DNA of 64,000 nucleotides from Candidatus Scalindua sediminis (lineage in GTDB: Bacteria > Planctomycetota > Brocadiia > Brocadiales > Scalinduaceae): NCBI GenBank assembly GCA_008636105.1, contig VSDH01000011.1, positions 1-64,000 on the forward strand, given 5' to 3'. Positions 26,246 through 36,586 of this stretch are shown piece after piece. Positions within the stretch are counted from its first letter, which is position 1. The number at the start of each line of letters is the position of its first letter. A model generated the notes under the pieces. The model saw nothing but the letters and a program-made list of their open reading frames with translations. It did not search any database and had not been told where the DNA came from. The position numbers and the translations under genes were made by a program.

Positions 26246-27470
26246 GTTTCAATCCACGCTCCCGTACGGGGAGCGACAGCTCTCCTTGGTATCTTCCTCA
26301 GGCAGGGAGTCGTTTCAATCCACGCTCCCGTACGGGGAGCGACCTCCGGCTCAGAAGAGCCTATGGCTCGGAGAGCTAGTTTCAATCCACGCCCCCGTAC
26401 GGGGAGCGACACGTCCTCAATCGCAAGTACTGCTAAAGGGGAAGGTTTCAATCCACGCCCCCGTACGGGGAGCGACCAACTCCACAGGCCTAAACCCGTA
26501 CTCAAGAAAGTTTCAATCCACGCCCCCGTACGGGGAGCGACGTCGCTCTGGCGATCCTGGCGGTGATCTTATTATGTTTCAATCCACGCCCCCGTATGGG
26601 GAGCGACAATAATATGGCATTACTAGACGCAAACGAAAACGTTTCAATCCACGCCCCCGTATGGGGAGCGACCATTAATACCCCCAATAGATGGTAAGTC
26701 TATAAGGTTTCAATCCACGCCCCCGTATGGGGAGCGGGGAGCGACACCAACCGTTTCTCTTTGCTTCTAATCTTAATATGTTTCAATCCACGCCCCCGTA
26801 CGGGGAGCGACTCGATCTCCAACGTTGGCAAGCAAACCATTCTTGTTTCAATCCACGCCCCCGTATGGGGAGCGACCAATAGCCCCGAAGGATTCGACAA
26901 GGGTATTTATGTTTCAATCCACGCCCCCGTATGGGGAGCGACCAGCCGGAGGGAATACGGTCAAGGCAATAGCCCCGTTTCAATCCACGCCCCCGTATGG
27001 GGAGCGACTCCGCAGCGGCCATGGAGGCTCTTATGGATTCGAGTTTCAATCCACGCCCCCGTATGGGGAGCGACCTCATGTATGTATGTTCTTTCGGCAA
27101 CTCATAAGTTTCAATCCACGCCCCCGTATGGGGAGCGACGACTGTATTCCGTATTAGCAAGGGTGCAAGTGATAGTTTCAATCCACGCCCCCGTATGGGG
27201 AGCGACTTACGATCACGACGCTTATTAAATACCTTCTTACGTTTCAATCCACGCCCCCGTATGGGGAGCGACAATCTCCGTAGGTAAACCAAAATAATCA
27301 CTAAGTGTTTCAATCCACGCCCCCGTATGGGGAGCGACGGTAAAACCTTAATGATTTCTATATTGAAAAAAGTTTCAATCCACGCCCCCGTATGGGGAGC
27401 GACTTTGCTTACCTTACCCGCCCTGAGGGAATAGGAATGTTTCAATCCACGCCCCCGTATGGGGAGCGAC
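26246..27470 (-). CRISPR. Type I-C CRISPR array, 19 repeats and 18 spacers
   Basis: Nineteen repeats of 32 nt with spacers of 33-35 nt. Read in the expected direction of transcription (minus), the repeat begins GTCGCTCCCC and ends GCGTGGATTGAAAC, the classic I-C sequence with a stem of CGCYCCCC and GGGGRGCG. Repeats fall in three types: ATACGGGGG nearest the leader (most copies), GTACGGGGG in the middle (26379, 26445, 26510 and again 26780), and GTACGGGAG at the two trailer-end copies (26246, 26312). The trailer form turns a U-G wobble in the stem into a U-A pair. The leader side is 27470, next to cas2, so the oldest spacers are at 26278 onward. No spacer was seen to match other parts of this window. 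Confidence 0.97.
26707..26745 (-). repeat. Aberrant 39-nt CRISPR repeat
   Basis: The eighth repeat has a 7-bp internal tandem duplication (GGGAGCG twice on the plus strand), making it 39 nt instead of 32. The extra bases fall in the stem region that becomes the 5' part of the repeat RNA, so processing of the flanking crRNAs may be affected. Confidence 0.85.
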
Positions 27471-27651: not shown

Positions 27652-27939
27652 TTAAACGATCAATGGTCCGTCCTGATCCAGCGACTTTTTGGCGCCAACA
27701 TGCTCTACCCGATGTTTCCAGTTAGAACCCAAAAAGTAAAACCTCAAACTGTCCTTTTCAGGATCAATTTCATCAATTAATCTATTGCGCAAGACCGTCC
27801 ATTGTGCAGGATCAACAATGCACTCAAAGACTGAATACTGCACTCTCTGACCATAGTCCTGACATACCCTTGCCACCCTGCGCAGCCGCCGCTGTCCATT
27901 ATCTTCCGAAGCAACATCATAACTGACTAATACAAACAT
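27652..27939 (-). CDS. cas2: CRISPR-associated endonuclease Cas2
   Basis: 95 residues with the Cas2 ferredoxin-like pattern: VLVSYDVA (metal-binding Asp), then QYSVFECIVDPAQW and SLRFYFLG. It forms the structural dimer of the Cas1-Cas2 integrase that inserts new spacers. It starts 9 bp after the cas1 stop, as in other I-C operons, and borders the leader. Confidence 0.95.
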   Translation of the reverse strand: MFVLVSYDVASEDNGQRRLRRVARVCQDYGQRVQYSVFECIVDPAQWTVLRNRLIDEIDPEKDSLRFYFLGSNWKHRVEHVGAKKSLDQDGPLIV

Positions 27940-29054: not shown

Positions 29055-29693
29055 TCAACTCTCCGTCATTTTCAAAAGATAAGCGCTTGCCTTTCCCTTT
29101 TTGCCGCACGTTTTTGGCATACACATTTGCACCAGAGAGCAACTTTTGCACTTTTTTGAATACTCAGGTTTCGGAGTTATTCCAGCGCTGATAAGTTCGT
29201 GTACTTTCTTTGCAGTCTCTTCCGTCTCTGTTCTTAAGGCCGTGTCAAATGTAACATCCTCTCTTCGTCTGGTTGTCCCGTAAAACAACGCTCCTTCGCT
29301 AATATTACAATTGAGCATCTCCTCAAGACATATGGCCTGTGCGCAGAGCTGGACTTTATCGCAGTTGTCCTTTTTGGGCTTGCCTCTCTTGTATTCAACA
29401 GGGAATGGATGCCAGTTAGCCCCCTGCCGGTGAAATTCCACTACATCCGCCTTTCCGATCAGGCCAAGCCGCAGCGACCTGAGCGGCACGCCATATTCAA
29501 TGCGGATATCCCTGCGTTTGTCCTGCCCGGCAGTATCAACCTTGTCGTGCATGATCCTGCCTTCGGCGGTAAACAGGTTTTCACTCCACAACTGCTCAAT
29601 GTGTATCAACGCACACTGTCTCTCGCAAAATATAATGTGCTGCAGTGCCGATAATTGAATGAGATCATCCTCGGTATAAGTCTTATTGGTCAT
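29055..29693 (-). CDS. cas4: CRISPR-associated Cas4 exonuclease
   Basis: 212 residues, RecB-like PD-(D/E)XK nuclease with an iron-sulfur cluster. Visible parts are the first Cys in IFCERQCALIHIEQLW, the metal ligands around GKADVVEFH and PVEYKRGKPKKD, QLCAQAICLEEML, and the C-terminal CKSCSLVQMCMPKTC cluster Cys. In I-C systems Cas4 trims and orients prespacers for Cas1-Cas2. The gene begins 7 bp after the four-helix-bundle gene that interrupts the usual cas7-cas4 junction. Confidence 0.95.
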   Translation of the reverse strand: MTNKTYTEDDLIQLSALQHIIFCERQCALIHIEQLWSENLFTAEGRIMHDKVDTAGQDKRRDIRIEYGVPLRSLRLGLIGKADVVEFHRQGANWHPFPVEYKRGKPKKDNCDKVQLCAQAICLEEMLNCNISEGALFYGTTRRREDVTFDTALRTETEETAKKVHELISAGITPKPEYSKKCKSCSLVQMCMPKTCGKKGKASAYLLKMTES

Positions 29694-29700
29694 ATATGAC

Positions 29701-30264
29701 TTATTTTTTTCTTCTCTGTGATCGTGTTCGATAGAGCCTCTCGGTAAACCCGCCCTCTTTCAGAAAATCCTTTTCCAGCGTCCGTAACAGCTGGTCTAGC
29801 AGATAGTTTGTCTGGTGAATCAGGCATACCATGGTGTTTGCGGCAACTTCGGGAGGAGAAGCTCCAATATACGACTTATAAGTCATATAAGACCTATTCT
29901 TCTGATAACAGAGATTTCTGACCTCTTTGGCCCTTGGATAATCCTTAGACCAAAGAGCCAGTCCTTTCTGCCTCAGATAATCTTGAAAATCCAGCAACAG
30001 TTCCTCAAGGCTCGCCCGAGCCACGCCGACGAGCTTCAGCTCGAACTTCTTCGAAGTTCCCGACGCCATGCTGCCTTCAGCGATGTTCTGTTTGCCACTG
30101 CGCGCCGCCTGCACCATCTGGTCATGGGTGCGGGAGCGCATATTGATAAACCGATTACAAAACACAACTGTGGCGTCATAAACAATCTCCGACATCTGGT
30201 AAGACTGTAGACCCTGATAGCCGCCGTGCGGCGGGATGAGTTGAGGATCATTTTGGTCGGTCAT
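29701..30264 (-). CDS. Four-helix-bundle (S23/Avd-like) protein with suffix domain, inside the cas operon
   Basis: 187 residues. The core (about 25-115) fits the four-helix-bundle family first seen in 23S rRNA intervening sequences and related in fold to the Avd protein of diversity-generating retroelements: YQMSEIVYDATVVFCNRFI, RSRTHDQMVQAARSGKQNIA, EGSMASGTSKKFELKLVGVA, RASLEELLLDFQDYLRQKG. A C-terminal extension matches the four-helix-bundle suffix type and ends in a basic RTRSQRRKK tail. The start codon directly follows the cas7 stop and the stop is 7 bp before cas4, so it is translated as part of the operon. Standard I-C loci have no gene here. Nucleic-acid binding is plausible for the basic pentameric fold; its role in CRISPR is unknown. 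Confidence 0.85.
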   Translation of the reverse strand: MTDQNDPQLIPPHGGYQGLQSYQMSEIVYDATVVFCNRFINMRSRTHDQMVQAARSGKQNIAEGSMASGTSKKFELKLVGVARASLEELLLDFQDYLRQKGLALWSKDYPRAKEVRNLCYQKNRSYMTYKSYIGASPPEVAANTMVCLIHQTNYLLDQLLRTLEKDFLKEGGFTERLYRTRSQRRKK

Positions 30265-31170
30265 TTAAATCCTTTCAATATTAACATTGTTTGGGTTGAA
30301 TATTGTAGGTGTTAATCCCTCAAGCTTTGTAAGCCTGATCGAATAATTCTCAATCTTCTTCGGATCAGTTACTCCTTCTTTAGGAGCAACACTCAGCGAC
30401 CGATGAACCACAGCAGAAGAATATTGTCCATGATTAACGCTGTGTTGCCACCAAAATACTGCGACTACCTCCATACTGCCCTCCGGTCTTGCGGAAGATG
30501 CATCGTTGTCAAACAAATTCTTAAGAGCTTCATGTATTGCCTCTGCGTCTTTATCTTCAAACAAAGTTTTTGAGGCAAGTTGGGGATTCATAGCGCCGTA
30601 GGTTACATACACTCCATGGTCAACGCGATGTTTCATCCCCATAGTATCTGTTGCTTTCTTTGTGCCGTCTCCTTCCCCGCTAACACTTTTTGTAATCTGT
30701 ATGCTCGAAACACGATCTCTTACTGGTACAACCGAAAAAGCTGAATGTATTGAAACGGGACCTCGAATTCCAACAGACACCCCTTCACCTTTTTTTGCAG
30801 CCCCATAGGCAAATACTTGTCCGAACGAGCGGACATCGATCCATTTCTCGCAAACAGCTTTTTGGAATATTTTTTTATCTTTCCATTGATCTTTCTTTAA
30901 TTCTCCTTCGGCTCTGGCTCTCAGGCTGGGATAATCATCCAATTTATTGTCATCAGATTGAACAAAAACACTGTATTTGTACTCATTATTGTCATTCTTC
31001 ATCTCCATCAGTCGATTTCTGATTTTTCTCTTGATGCATACATCAGATAATTCACCAAAACCATCGTAATCTATTCGTGGACGATTACCATTTAACGGAT
31101 CACCATTAGGATTAGCACGATTTACACTGAATATCACTGCAAAATCAATTTTCTTTTTCAACGTTTCCAT
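30265..31170 (-). CDS. cas7c: Cas7/Csd2, type I-C backbone subunit
   Basis: 301 residues. It is the RAMP protein that polymerises along the crRNA in the I-C Cascade. Family features are FAVIFSVNRANPNGDPLNGN at the N-terminus, IRGPVSIHSAFSVVPV, and HRVDHGVYVTYGAMNPQLA. It begins 29 bp after the cas8c stop, and its own stop abuts the next gene without a gap. Confidence 0.95.
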   Translation of the reverse strand: METLKKKIDFAVIFSVNRANPNGDPLNGNRPRIDYDGFGELSDVCIKRKIRNRLMEMKNDNNEYKYSVFVQSDDNKLDDYPSLRARAEGELKKDQWKDKKIFQKAVCEKWIDVRSFGQVFAYGAAKKGEGVSVGIRGPVSIHSAFSVVPVRDRVSSIQITKSVSGEGDGTKKATDTMGMKHRVDHGVYVTYGAMNPQLASKTLFEDKDAEAIHEALKNLFDNDASSARPEGSMEVVAVFWWQHSVNHGQYSSAVVHRSLSVAPKEGVTDPKKIENYSIRLTKLEGLTPTIFNPNNVNIERI

Positions 31171-31199: not shown

Positions 31200-33365
31200 T
31201 TATTCCTCTGAATTAATATCTTCAATGTTCTTCGGTTCGTCTTTTTTTGGTTTTAATGCTTCCCGCTGGCAATGATATGCCAATAGAAACTCTCCACTTA
31301 ACGGTTTATCACTTGTGAAATCCTCAACAGGTTCAAATAAATTCATTGTTTTGTCAATTACATCTTGATATTTTATTACCCTTCCACCAAGTCTTGCCTT
31401 GTAAGGAACCAGTGAAAGCTCAATGGTTTTCCATGTACTGCAAGGGCGGTCAGAAAAACGCTGCATCAACCGTGCGGCATTGGTATCTCTCTTTTTTTCT
31501 GAAACAAACAATGCAAAGTTTTCCAAACAATCTGCAGCAGCCAACAAACGGCCATACAAGTAATCACGAGTTTTACGATTCTCCTCTAACGCCATACTAT
31601 ATCCCTCCTTTTCATTTAATTTTCTAAAAAGTGCACAGGCTATGCTGAGCGTTTTATTCCAATCTTCATTTTTTTTAAAGCCAACTCTATTTGTTGCCCT
31701 TCGAGTTGCTGACTCAACAAGGTCGCGTGGAATTTGTTGATTATCAATTATGCATGGCATAAGTCTTTCCACTGTGGACTTTTTAATCTTGTCATCCACA
31801 ACAAGCCTATCATTTTCATAATGACCAAAAGCCGCTTCAGCGATATCTTTTGGCGCCGGTGCTCCGACAAAACAAATGCGTTTTTTTGTTTCGGGATTGT
31901 ATCCATAGTCATGAAGCCAAGCACAGCTATCATGCCATTTTTCTAAACGATCAAGAAATTCCGAACCCGTCAGTTCACGGTAGAAGGTAATAGCCATTCG
32001 TCCAGGCGTTGCGGAATCAATGCCCATAACCACAACACCGCTTGTATCTCCAATGTCGGCTTTGTAACCCGCTATTTTCCGTCTCAATTTAATAGCAAGA
32101 TTCTGTGCGACTGAGACGTTATCAGAATCATCTCTTTTAAGTTCATCTTCTCCTAAAATAGCAAGAGGGTCGGCAAGGGGATCTGGAATTTCTGCGCCTG
32201 AAGCAGCCCATGCAACGATAGCCTGATCTCCGCTACGATAACCTTGACGACTGATAAGCCAACGGAGAGCACTATGCGCTTTTTGAGTTACCTCAAATCC
32301 AACCCCACACGCTTGATTCGCGTCCTCAAAACGTCCACGGAAAGTAAATCCCGATGTATCATTTGATGAAATAATTTTTGCTCCATCACCATCGTTTCTA
32401 ATTTTTTTCGGATGCTGTTCAGCAATAAAATGAACTTCCCCTGTTACATAACAAAGAGCTTTATTTTTTTTCATATTGTAATAATATTTTGTCCAACTAT
32501 CCCAAAGCGTTTTATCTTCCCATGTTTTAGAGCATAGAACGTTTGGGATCTCAACTTCCCATCGAATAAACGCATCAGCCTGCCAATTTTCAAGATTACC
32601 TTTCTTGTTGAATCTTCCCGGCAATAAATCAAATATATCTATTGCCTTATTATCCTGCTTTTTTTCTATCCGCTTTTCTAATAGCTTGCCATCATTATTT
32701 ACAAACAGTAGTTTGCTGTCGACTAAATCTTCAATAACCCTTCCTTTTCTAACATAATTAAGTACTGCGCAAGCCTTTTCGTGTCTGAATTCTGACTCAC
32801 ACCAATCAGTCAGAAGCTTGCTATATGATCGTTTGTTCTTAGTAAGCAAAATTTCATAAATTTTCTCTTTTCTCTTATCCCATTTTTGGTCTAGAATCAT
32901 GCCCTTATAATCGTTCAACCCTGAAAATTTCGATTGAATCATGCCAGACTTGTCAATATAGCCTTGCTGACACAAATCATCAATCAAACCCTTTTTATCC
33001 ACTTTGTTGCCAAGTTTTTTGGAGTCATCTTCTGCAATAATGGCGAAATAATACGAATCACTTGTCCCACTATATTTAGGATAATCCTTTGCCACATACT
33101 GCAACTTATCACATAAAGGATGAGGGGCTTCGCCTCTTGTTCGACCGCCTGAACTCTCTGTGCATGGAATAATCGTTCTTGCATCGTCTTTTGGCACAAT
33201 TCTGGCTCTCTTAAAATTTCCTTGATAATCAATAACAATCTCAATTTGGGCTTTGTTCGTTGTGTGGCAGATCGGAAGAAGAGGGACTTCTTTCTCAGAG
33301 ACAACCTTGCCAATCATTGACTGACAATTCTCATAGGTTTCATATAGTTTTTGTATCCAGCTCAT
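31200..33365 (-). CDS. cas8c: Cas8c/Csd1, type I-C large subunit
   Basis: 721 residues, on the long side for Csd1. It recognises the PAM and forms the large subunit of the I-C Cascade; in several I-C systems an internal start also yields the small subunit. Csd1-like segments are MSWIQKLYETYENCQ at the start, CYVTGEVHFIAEQHPKKI, SSNDTSGFTFRGRF (the G-rich central motif) and the RLMQRFSDRPCSTW region. It overlaps cas5c by 4 bp (ATGA), indicating coupled translation. Confidence 0.93.
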   Translation of the reverse strand: MSWIQKLYETYENCQSMIGKVVSEKEVPLLPICHTTNKAQIEIVIDYQGNFKRARIVPKDDARTIIPCTESSGGRTRGEAPHPLCDKLQYVAKDYPKYSGTSDSYYFAIIAEDDSKKLGNKVDKKGLIDDLCQQGYIDKSGMIQSKFSGLNDYKGMILDQKWDKRKEKIYEILLTKNKRSYSKLLTDWCESEFRHEKACAVLNYVRKGRVIEDLVDSKLLFVNNDGKLLEKRIEKKQDNKAIDIFDLLPGRFNKKGNLENWQADAFIRWEVEIPNVLCSKTWEDKTLWDSWTKYYYNMKKNKALCYVTGEVHFIAEQHPKKIRNDGDGAKIISSNDTSGFTFRGRFEDANQACGVGFEVTQKAHSALRWLISRQGYRSGDQAIVAWAASGAEIPDPLADPLAILGEDELKRDDSDNVSVAQNLAIKLRRKIAGYKADIGDTSGVVVMGIDSATPGRMAITFYRELTGSEFLDRLEKWHDSCAWLHDYGYNPETKKRICFVGAPAPKDIAEAAFGHYENDRLVVDDKIKKSTVERLMPCIIDNQQIPRDLVESATRRATNRVGFKKNEDWNKTLSIACALFRKLNEKEGYSMALEENRKTRDYLYGRLLAAADCLENFALFVSEKKRDTNAARLMQRFSDRPCSTWKTIELSLVPYKARLGGRVIKYQDVIDKTMNLFEPVEDFTSDKPLSGEFLLAYHCQREALKPKKDEPKNIEDINSEE

Positions 33366-34093
33366 TTATGCCCCTCCCATTCTTCAAAACCTTCCAGCAG
33401 CCCATCCCCGTCTAATCCGATCGACTGTGGCGGATTGGCTTTCATTGTCCTAACGACTTTCCGTATCGTACATGCTTCTGGTTTGATAAAATCAATCCTG
33501 CCGTCAATCATCTTCGGACGCCAGAACCGGGTATGAAGTTCATTTCCCCCAAGCTCGTCAGGATAATCAAATCCGTGAAACATCAGGTCAAATGCTATTT
33601 CACCGTAATCATCGTAATCGCTTTTCCCTTCTCCAAACCTGCATGGCTCGACATACCCCTGACATTCCCTCGCGCCTAAAAATATATCTCTTCTGCCACC
33701 CTTATCTATCATTCGTTTAGCTACAAAGAAATGTTTGTTTTCATTCCTGTCCTTAGCCATATCCTCACGGTGGTAATTCCAGTCAAAATGAGCCTGAACC
33801 TGATACTCAACATCGGCAAGATATGTATAGATCGAAAGCTCATTGCCTCCGCCATACTTAACAGGCTTTGCACTTCGAGTCTGCGTCCTGATGCGCTTCA
33901 TTACTCTTACCTGGTCGATAATCCATATAATAGTAGGCTTCCAGTACACAGAACTCAATATGCCTTTTAACGCTTCATAGGTAGGAATATGATAAGAGCA
34001 CTTCTCTCCGCCTATCTTTGTCAGAGGGTCGGTAAAAAGGGCATATTTACCGTATACTTTGAATTCAACTCTGTTTTCCTTTTCCATATGCAC
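33362..34093 (-). CDS. cas5c: Cas5c/Cas5d, crRNA-processing subunit
   Basis: 243 residues. In I-C systems, which lack Cas6, Cas5c cuts the repeat RNA and stays bound to the 5' handle. Typical segments are the N-terminal FKVYGKYALFTDPLTKIGGEK, YEALKGILSSVYWKPTIIW, and REDMAKDRNENKHFFVAKRM. The gene starts 9 bp after the cas3 stop. Confidence 0.95.
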   Translation of the reverse strand: MHMEKENRVEFKVYGKYALFTDPLTKIGGEKCSYHIPTYEALKGILSSVYWKPTIIWIIDQVRVMKRIRTQTRSAKPVKYGGGNELSIYTYLADVEYQVQAHFDWNYHREDMAKDRNENKHFFVAKRMIDKGGRRDIFLGARECQGYVEPCRFGEGKSDYDDYGEIAFDLMFHGFDYPDELGGNELHTRFWRPKMIDGRIDFIKPEACTIRKVVRTMKANPPQSIGLDGDGLLEGFEEWEGHK

Positions 34094-34102
34094 CCCCTTT
34101 AT

Positions 34103-36586
34103 TTAGCTATAAAAAAATTCCATATTTGTTACCGGCGTTTTGTTTAATCCGAATTCCTTGCTATAATATCGTTTATCAAGATAAAAAATACCTGAGCCTT
34201 CCTGAACTTCGTATATTGCTTGCTCATCCAATAACTTAGTCAATACATGTGGGAAGACATTAACTGAATATCGCTGTGCCTGTCGTAATAATTTGTATTG
34301 TTTTTCCAGTTCATAAGCGGAACAAAGATTATTGACAAGCGTTTTTCCTTCTTTCCCATATTGAACAACAATTCCTCTTGCTGCCGTATCTATTACATCA
34401 AATGACCTGGCGGCAGACATGAAAGCCTGTCTTAATAAAATGCCTGGCGCTTTGCCATTCATACGCTCATACTCTGAAACAGAAACTTTATTCCGTGCTA
34501 GCAGATTAAATAAATTATCCGCATGTCCCACAGGTGATTTAGAACGGACAGGGTAGCACATATCATCTTTTCTTTGATAGAAATAATATTGATAATATTG
34601 CTCCATCGCTTCAGGACTTAAAAGATTATTCCTGTATTTTTCAGGATTGTTTTTAAATTCATCCAGCAACCGTTCAGTCTTTTCCTTACCTATTCTGATA
34701 TCTTCAAGACTATCAATATTTTCATCAGCCGGATTTATTATGTAAACATCGCCTAACGCTGGATACATTTCGTTATGTCGATTACATCTCCCTGCAGCCT
34801 GTGTGATTGAATCAAGTCCTGCCAAAAAGCGAATAACTGACCCGAATGAAATATCAACACCTGCCTCTATAAGCTGAGTACTGATACAAATAACCGGTTT
34901 TTTATCACTCAAATCATCTTTGACCTTTTGAAGAACCTTCATGCGGTGAGCCGGACACATATTTGTGCTCAAATGATATGCTATACCATTCTTCATGCCT
35001 TGACACTGCTGATAAAGTTCACGTGCCGATTTTTTTGTATTTACGACTATAAGAACACTGCCAGATTTAGCAAGTTCTTGCCCTGCAAGTTCTATTATTT
35101 CATCATTATTCCAGCCGTCATCTTTTGTTTTGTCATGAACCTCAACACGTTTTAGATTTTCGAATATCTGCTTCTCATTAGAAATTATTTGTTGTTCCGC
35201 AGCAATAGACAATGCTCTGGACTTCTTTTCAATTTTATCTAAAAGCGGCTGAGTTGCAGTACATAGAATAACCGAAGAACCACAGTTGTTTACAAGAAAA
35301 TCGACAGCCACATTGAATAAGTGAACGCACTTAACCGACAATGTCTGAACTTCATCAAAAATAATAACCGCATTTGCAAGTTGATGCATTCTTCGTGCAC
35401 CACGCGTTCCAGATCCGAATAATGCTTCAAGCACCTGTACATTGGTTGTCAACACGACAGGAGCATCCCAATTTTCAGAGAGCACTTTTTGTCTTGCACT
35501 TTCTTTATCAGGCAATAGATTGGAATGATGCTCCAAAACTACACGATCAAGATATTGACCCTTTTCGTCCTTATCTTCCAAGACCTTCCGTATCTCTTCA
35601 GCATTTTGATCAATAATAGTGGTATATGGCAGAACATAGATAATTCTGTCCATCTTGTATTTGCCAGCATGATGCAAAGCAAATCTCAAACTTGCGAATG
35701 TTTTCCCGCCGCCTGTGGGGACTGTCAATTGATACAGACCTTTTGGTTTTCCGGAATAACCGAGACATGCCTGCGATATTTTATGCCGTATTGCATTAAT
35801 TCCTTTTAAATCAAAACCGTTAAGTTTTTTGTCTAATTTTTTTATGAGTGAATCCCAATTATCATACTTACCACAATTCCTCAATTTTGCTATGTCTGGA
35901 GCGTCAAAATCAGCCGTATTTAATCTGTCGGCATCAATCAGGCAACTAAAAAGAAACCGTAATAGTAATCCATGTTTAAAAGCAAGGGTTTCCCGTGTTT
36001 CCTTATCATCATGGAAATTGCGTAATGACTTAAACTTATCAACAAGGTTTTGATAGAGTTTTTCTGATTGCAAGCGGCTTGTTATGAAGTTCAACGCCTC
36101 ATTGGTAAGATTGCCTGTTGCTTCACTAATATGTGTTTTCTCACTATCTTTGTTTATACGCTTTGAATAGGCATCCATCCCATCAGGGGAAATACAGTCT
36201 ATCAATCCTGAATGATGTGAAACTAAACACAATGACATGACTTGAGCAGCAAATAATGCTTCCGGCCCTTTATCAGAAAGTGTTCTAAATATTAATTGAG
36301 CACCTGCGGTGGAGTGATCAACTTTACCTTTCTTTCCTGCTGCATCAACATAATCATCTTCATCTGTATTTATAAGGCCAACTGCAGATTTAATATATTG
36401 ATCAAATTCCTTACTTGATTTTCCTATATCGTGCAAGAGCCCTATTATTTCTCCTTGCTCTTTAAGGCCAATCTTTGAGGCAAACTCACCTGCTATCTTC
36501 GAAACTTCCTCAAGGTGAGCATCTAGACTTTGTATTGTTCCGTCTTGTTCTCTACGGTGAGCAACATAATCAACATTTTGGAACAT
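34103..36586 (-). CDS. cas3: Cas3 helicase-nuclease
   Basis: 827 residues. It unwinds and degrades target DNA recruited by Cascade. The N-terminal HD nuclease domain has GLLHDIGKSSKEFDQY and DHSTAGAQLI. The superfamily 2 helicase has Walker A TVPTGGGKTF, the DEVQ box VIIFDEVQTL, CTATQP, and motif VI QAAGRCNRHN. All catalytic motifs look intact. An orphan 57-residue HD-type N-terminus of a different Cas3 lies directly upstream (36589-36762), 2 bp before this start. Confidence 0.95.
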   Translation of the reverse strand: MFQNVDYVAHRREQDGTIQSLDAHLEEVSKIAGEFASKIGLKEQGEIIGLLHDIGKSSKEFDQYIKSAVGLINTDEDDYVDAAGKKGKVDHSTAGAQLIFRTLSDKGPEALFAAQVMSLCLVSHHSGLIDCISPDGMDAYSKRINKDSEKTHISEATGNLTNEALNFITSRLQSEKLYQNLVDKFKSLRNFHDDKETRETLAFKHGLLLRFLFSCLIDADRLNTADFDAPDIAKLRNCGKYDNWDSLIKKLDKKLNGFDLKGINAIRHKISQACLGYSGKPKGLYQLTVPTGGGKTFASLRFALHHAGKYKMDRIIYVLPYTTIIDQNAEEIRKVLEDKDEKGQYLDRVVLEHHSNLLPDKESARQKVLSENWDAPVVLTTNVQVLEALFGSGTRGARRMHQLANAVIIFDEVQTLSVKCVHLFNVAVDFLVNNCGSSVILCTATQPLLDKIEKKSRALSIAAEQQIISNEKQIFENLKRVEVHDKTKDDGWNNDEIIELAGQELAKSGSVLIVVNTKKSARELYQQCQGMKNGIAYHLSTNMCPAHRMKVLQKVKDDLSDKKPVICISTQLIEAGVDISFGSVIRFLAGLDSITQAAGRCNRHNEMYPALGDVYIINPADENIDSLEDIRIGKEKTERLLDEFKNNPEKYRNNLLSPEAMEQYYQYYFYQRKDDMCYPVRSKSPVGHADNLFNLLARNKVSVSEYERMNGKAPGILLRQAFMSAARSFDVIDTAARGIVVQYGKEGKTLVNNLCSAYELEKQYKLLRQAQRYSVNVFPHVLTKLLDEQAIYEVQEGSGIFYLDKRYYSKEFGLNKTPVTNMEFFYS

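Follow-up and report, generated by a model that had tools for sequence, protein, structure and literature searches.

What is a gene for a small helical protein doing in the middle of a type I-C CRISPR operon, and did it come to stand there by chance? The window (the whole stretch of 64,000 nucleotides analysed here) carries, entirely on the minus strand, a complete type I-C set in the order cas3-cas5-cas8c-cas7-4HB-cas4-cas1-cas2, followed by a 19-repeat array. Here 4HB designates the additional gene, whose product is assigned by profile match and predicted structure to the TIGR04258 four-helix-bundle-suffix proteins and to the S23/IVP fold. Neither the reading frame nor its position is due to chance, because the gene is under purifying selection and the same placement is encountered in dozens of genomes.

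Position of 4HB in the cas operon

The 4HB reading frame occupies positions 29701 to 30264 of the minus strand, starts with ATG and encodes 187 amino acids; it is present in a single copy in its own genome. The initial annotation described it as built into the operon, directly after cas7 and 7 bp before cas4, and the coordinates confirm this arrangement. The stop codon of cas7 (csd2, type I-C, TIGR02589; 30265 to 31170) ends at 30265, the ATG of 4HB begins on the adjacent base, 30264, and a Shine-Dalgarno-like AAGGA is placed within the 3' end of cas7. On the other side, the 4HB stop codon ends at 29701 and the ATG of cas4 (TIGR00372; 29055 to 29693) starts at 29693, leaving 7 nt between them. 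The other genes, also identified by profile matches on the minus strand, are cas3 (34103 to 36586), cas5c (33362 to 34093), cas8c/csd1 (31200 to 33365), cas1 of type I-C (TIGR03640; 27949 to 28980) and cas2 (27652 to 27939).

Family membership and predicted structure

The window protein belongs to NCBIfam family TIGR04258, matching the full model (81.1 bits against a cut-off of 40, with all 49 positions covered). It also passes TIGR02436 (25.8 bits for a cut-off of 24) and scores 23.4 with Pfam PF05635 (23S_rRNA_IVP), below the gathering cut-off of 33.8. The AlphaFold model of the monomer is a confident helical bundle (pLDDT 89.6) with helices at residues 20-39, 45-67, 72-99, 110-120, 126-133, 138-170 and 173-186. 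Its first-ranking match in the PDB is 2GSC, the S23 protein of Xanthomonas (target-normalised TM-score 0.87, Foldseek E 0.019). The S23/Avd-like four-helix-bundle fold proposed from the letters of the sequence thus agrees with structure prediction, and the model confirms the S23/IVP fold. In the light of this model and of the 2GSC match, the 'suffix' of TIGR04258 corresponds to helix 4 and the C-terminal helix. Sequence searches against solved structures returned only chance-level matches for 4HB, PADLOC and PHROGs no significant match, and a literature search on the family name no paper naming TIGR04258, whose entry states no function. S23/IVP-fold proteins are widespread, and we know of no function for them outside diversity-generating retroelements.

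Two predictions can be made about the biochemistry of the protein. The 2GSC structure is a homopentamer of four-helix bundles (PMC4990558), and by analogy 4HB probably forms a ring of five. The 4HB proteins are basic (pI 8.7-9.9), and in six relatives (L079, L086, L096, L097, L100 and L106) a topoisomerase-type C4 zinc ribbon, PF01396, is fused C-terminally to the four-helix bundle, scoring over the cut-off in five of the six tested. Taken with the 9-bp repeats described below, these features suggest that 4HB binds nucleic acid.

Recurrence across genomes and CRISPR types

The initial annotation had asked whether the association with cas7 and cas4 would be met again or whether this locus was the only case; it was found many times. 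The order of the host contains 20 TIGR04258 genes distributed over 14 of 62 genomes, and 16 of these genes adjoin cas4 or stand between cas4 and cas1. Scanning GTDB contigs yielded 80 further TIGR04258 genes from many phyla, and more of them adjoin cas4 in Thermodesulfobacteriota, Nitrospirota, Myxococcota, Pseudomonadota, Chloroflexota, Verrucomicrobiota and Lentisphaerota. From 296 Nitrospirota genomes sampled independently, with loci picked by TIGR04258 alone, 57 loci were obtained: 12 are CRISPR loci, all 12 with the gene directly upstream of cas4, and at least 12 adjoin type I restriction genes. The same sample contains 24 cas4 genes at least 63% identical to that of the window, and 4HB adjoins 12 of them and is missing from the other half.

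The effector genes found beside 4HB vary considerably. The divergent cas7 proteins tested all belong to type I-C, and 4HB of the window type precedes unrelated I-C effector modules whose cas7 is only ~30% identical. Other CRISPR types are represented as well, with the orders cas6e-cas7e-cas5e|4HB|cas1e in type I-E (L152), cas12a|4HB|cas4|cas1 in the type V-A locus of planctomycete genome G196 (L081), and cmr6|4HB|TIGR02221 (L220) and RAMP|4HB|Csm6 HEPN (L193) in type III.

Phylogeny and restriction-operon counterparts

In a maximum-likelihood tree with 189 rows, some of them near-copies, 44 are CRISPR loci (mostly type I-C, with I-E, III and V-A), 28 are type I restriction operons and 117 lie elsewhere; placement in CRISPR adaptation loci recurs across lineages, and the family is not confined to CRISPR. 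The window protein falls in a clade of 30 rows (SH-aLRT 95), all CRISPR-linked and originating from at least six phyla. Over the whole tree the label changes at least 10 times for CRISPR and at least 15 times for restriction, both counts far under those obtained with shuffled labels. Among the neighbours of relatives outside the 30-row clade, type I restriction genes lead (Methylase_S, HsdR-type, N6_Mtase), and a large number of housekeeping genes, each on its own, rank behind them.

Intact type I restriction operons display the order hsdS|4HB|hsdR, and where hsdR is intact the 4HB stop codon often overlaps the hsdR start in a 4-bp ATGA. Loci with 4HB at this joint, from Nitrospirota and others, include L239, L240, L245, L246, L248, L278, L280, L282, L295 and L296. 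Since close relatives (~70-74% identical) reside in type I restriction and housekeeping operons, the biochemical activity of the protein is not specific to CRISPR. A search for CRISPR-specific signature residues gave only weak ones, at positions 20, 94 and 122, that tell CRISPR-linked copies from the others.

Selection and linkage to the adaptation genes

Pairwise dN/dS values of 4HB lie at ~0.05-0.15, around 0.1, which denotes purifying selection and does not bear out the suggestion that the gene might be a neutral hitchhiker. Linkage was assessed by comparing the window with two members of its family, L030 and L031. Among these three loci pS amounts to 0.40-0.44 for 4HB, 0.28-0.40 for cas4, 0.19-0.32 for cas1 and 0.35-0.59 for cas2, with similarly low dN/dS, and the cas7 of the window differs from those of L030 and L031 by a pN of ~0.45, which corresponds to a different effector module. 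Because the divergences of the four downstream genes are similar and that of cas7 is so high, 4HB-cas4-cas1-cas2 is passed on as a block in the family of the window, with cas7/8/5/3 exchanged upstream. A part in prespacer handling had initially been suggested as one possibility; this pattern of co-inheritance upholds the link with the adaptation side, of which prespacer handling would be one possible form.

Transfer, junctions and decay

In other loci the gene itself has travelled. In L025, L026, L029 and L033, 4HB is 81-85% identical to that of the window, and cas4 and cas1 are just 42-50% identical. The cas4 genes of L025 and L026 are chimeric, only their first 15-19 codons matching the window type; L026 retains the displaced native cas4 start upstream of 4HB, and L029 possesses a joint unlike that of the other two. 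The type I-E operon of L150 (1982 to 9641; cse1, cas5e, cas1e) contains 4HB followed by a stub of ~31 codons of a type I-C cas4 and then by cas1e, an arrangement that is the scar of a transfer between CRISPR types, from I-C to I-E. A counterpart is found in restriction loci L159, L246 and L248, where 4HB is followed by an hsdR stub of ~44 codons and then by another gene (UvrD-type helicase), in L159 a UvrD helicase with a PD-(D/E)XK nuclease domain. The 3' junctions are accordingly ragged, including 0, ~6, 15-19, 31 or 44 codons of the next gene; no precise transposon ends were seen at 4HB loci. As judged from these joints, 4HB moves between operons by recombination with ragged ends.

Copies are also lost. 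Broken 4HB copies lie beside intact cas genes in L139, L142 and L292, and a remnant accompanies an intact copy in L028, L156 and L254. Since broken copies stand beside intact cas operons, 4HB is dispensable.

Repeats with a period of nine

Two repeats with a 9-nt period are found on the minus strand of the window. One lies within 4HB (29867 to 29897; GGTCTTATATGACTTATAAGTCGTAT) and, by comparison with the structure, encodes the loop RSYMTYKSY between helices 3 and 4; the other is just 3' of 4HB (29673 to 29703; TAAGTCATATATGACCAATAAGACTTATACC) and extends over the start codon of cas4. Such period-9 repeats, with a GAC/GTC core, flank the gene on its 5' side in 35 of 132 loci, lie within the coding sequence ahead of helix 4 in 30 of 128 and flank the gene on its 3' side in 31 of 131, as compared with 1/132 control stretches, 0/132 for the first 300 nt of the gene and 1/132 for its last 150 nt. 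Periods other than 9 are near absent around 4HB genes. At a laxer threshold, 141 of the 189 rows have a period-9 repeat in at least one place. The sequence of the repeat is specific to each locus, the sharing of 5-mers being 0.38 within loci versus 0.14 between them.

The pattern tested in the genome of the window was found inside the 4HB gene only, which rejects the idea that the repeat plays a REP-like role throughout this genome. Planctomycete genomes G374 and G192 contain short arrays of 9-bp GTCNGAC-type (GTC/GAC) units dispersed genome-wide, with 71 and 42 matches against 3 and 1 in controls, and these 9-mers resemble a REP family that may belong to 4HB genes. Conserved RNA hairpins do not provide a general explanation of the repeats, the z-scores being mixed: over the cas4 start the hairpin is weak in the window (z -1.9) and absent from L030 (z +1.1).

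Comparison with known systems

4HB resembles the S23/IVP proteins (PF05635, TIGR02436; PDB 2GSC, 2RLD) in its fold, in a weak sequence match and in the short GAC-core tandem repeats by the reading frame. In the 23S intervening sequence (IVS) of Coxiella, which has been called a selfish element, tandem GACAGAT heptamers precede the S23p ORF (PMC4990558), and by analogy the 9-mers of 4HB would be linked to these heptamers. In contrast to S23/IVP proteins, 4HB is located outside the 23S rRNA gene, is 187 rather than ~110 amino acids long, resides within a protein operon and is under strong purifying selection. Standing between cas7 and cas4, it lacks the insertion in the 23S rRNA gene that would make it an IVS element of this kind.

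The analogy with Avd and the reverse transcriptase of diversity-generating retroelements, raised in the initial annotation, holds for the structural fold class and fails for the partner. PF05635 has been likened to Avd in a passage of an earlier paper (PMC10053308), and one Avd-like BFVD match was obtained. The RVT_1 profile gave no match in the assembly of the window (~94% complete), which therefore offers no reverse transcriptase partner, and the most frequent neighbour families of 4HB relatives do not include RVT_1.

An IVP-type protein has been associated with CRISPR adaptation modules before: the legend of Fig. 6B in Altae-Tran et al. (2023; PMC10910872) lists '23S rRNA IVP' among such associations, with no mechanism given there; the protein is only named and may or may not be of the TIGR04258 subfamily. 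The bare association is therefore not new, although the part of that text dealing with it describes neither a move from I-C to I-E nor restriction joints, inheritance as a block or 9-mers. The literature found on S23 with CRISPR or restriction likewise contains no description of a CRISPR-only clade, a transfer from I-C to I-E that left a cas4 stub, an hsdS|hsdR counterpart or 9-bp repeats.

Possible functions of 4HB

In defence loci 4HB stands where the genes for recognition or effector functions meet those whose products cut or process DNA or RNA, namely cas4/cas1 in types I-C, I-E and V-A, csm6 or TIGR02221 in type III and hsdR in type I restriction. The explanation that we place first, to which we tentatively grant a little less than even weight, is that 4HB serves bacterial defence operons as a portable accessory gene, with a DNA-binding product that controls the downstream nuclease module in cis through its own repeats. 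A basic S23/IVP-type four-helix-bundle protein, probably a five-membered ring, would bind nucleic acid and act in cis on its own 9-bp repeats, which lie in the leader, within the coding sequence and where the following gene starts, and this binding would set the amount of the nuclease module made downstream. Such control would account for the usefulness of one and the same protein in front of Cas4/Cas1, HsdR and Csm6. We rank it first because the genes that follow 4HB in defence loci (cas4, cas1, hsdR, csm6) mostly encode nucleases or integrases, which would presumably be harmful to the host if made in excess. Several observations weigh against it: a defence-specific regulator does not explain the 117 of 189 relatives located elsewhere, many by housekeeping genes, the hairpin over the start of cas4 lacks conservation, the diagnostic residues are weak and the broken copies denote a dispensable gene. 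A more elaborate version, which we consider doubtful, would make the S23-type DNA-binding ring lineage a transferable component of CRISPR adaptation in types I-C, I-E and V-A, with sister lineages serving HsdR and the ancillary nucleases of type III in an equivalent manner; together they would form a single class of portable subunits, with a control or chaperone function, that several defence systems share and that targets the 9-bp repeat which it encodes itself.

The gene and its repeats could instead spread for their own sake, like 23S rRNA intervening sequences, and gather in travelling defence operons, the selection observed then serving their spread. This explanation, second in our ranking and in our estimation possible but not probable, accommodates the S23/IVP fold, the likeness of the Coxiella heptamers to the GAC/GTC-core 9-mers, the very mixed neighbours of the relatives, the repeated arrivals and decayed copies, including remnants beside a fresh copy, and the 9-mer arrays of G374 and G192. 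It fits less well with the lack of a transposase-like domain and the imprecise ends of the element, and a random inserter should also hit other cas gaps, whereas in CRISPR loci the gene nearly always occupies the effector-adaptation joint or the cas4/cas1 gap, and a 30-row CRISPR-only clade exists. That same clade would be expected if 4HB worked with Cas1-Cas2, and with Cas4 where present, in the capture or trimming of new spacers, a role that we place third and regard as rather unlikely. Block inheritance through effector swaps speaks for it, as do L176, where no effector was detected in the 8 kb that precede 4HB-cas4-cas1-cas2, the two arrivals directly before cas1e in operons of type I-E (L150 and L152), which lack cas4, and the '23S rRNA IVP' entry in the legend cited above (PMC10910872). 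Near relatives at hsdS|hsdR, and before csm6 or TIGR02221 in type III, have no adaptation gene adjacent, half of the matching Nitrospirota cas4 genes do without 4HB, and broken 4HB coexists with intact cas1-cas2, all of which argues against such a role. The start of 4HB directly after cas7 would suit a part in the interference complex, and a function in Cascade assembly had initially been envisaged. It is very improbable, since the same gene is found unchanged before unrelated type I-C effectors, in two operons of type I-E, in two loci of type III, in one locus with cas12a and in restriction operons, and the effector swaps contradict it.

The existence of a lineage that remains with the CRISPR adaptation genes through effector swaps and passes from one CRISPR type to another, together with sister lineages at the hsdS|hsdR joint, makes the function of S23/IVP-fold proteins directly testable. 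Under the cis-control explanation, 4HB is a candidate for the missing control element of immunity steps that may harm the host itself, such as spacer capture, restriction and Csm6-type RNases. A selfish gene would instead mean that defence operons carry a class of parasites at their module joints.

Additional features of the loci

L022, and L180 up to the limit of its contig, contain two 4HB genes, one on each side of cas4. In the type V-A locus L093 (planctomycete genome G380, cas12a), a broken 4HB lies ~1.3 kb from the end of cas1. No phage record carrying 4HB was found, and carriage by mobile elements amounts to one Prevotella megaplasmid and one viral contig. In L091 (301 to 1899) the repeat region of 4HB is massively expanded (SIQSMQST...) and its 3' part tandemly duplicated. 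The CRISPR array of the window (26246 to 27470, strand not assigned) consists of 19 repeats of 32 nt (GTTTCAATCCACGCCCCCGTATGGGGAGCGAC), which bear the variant CGTATGGGG or CGTACGGGG; near 26707, where these two variants switch, one copy is altered and its unit is longer (73 nt).
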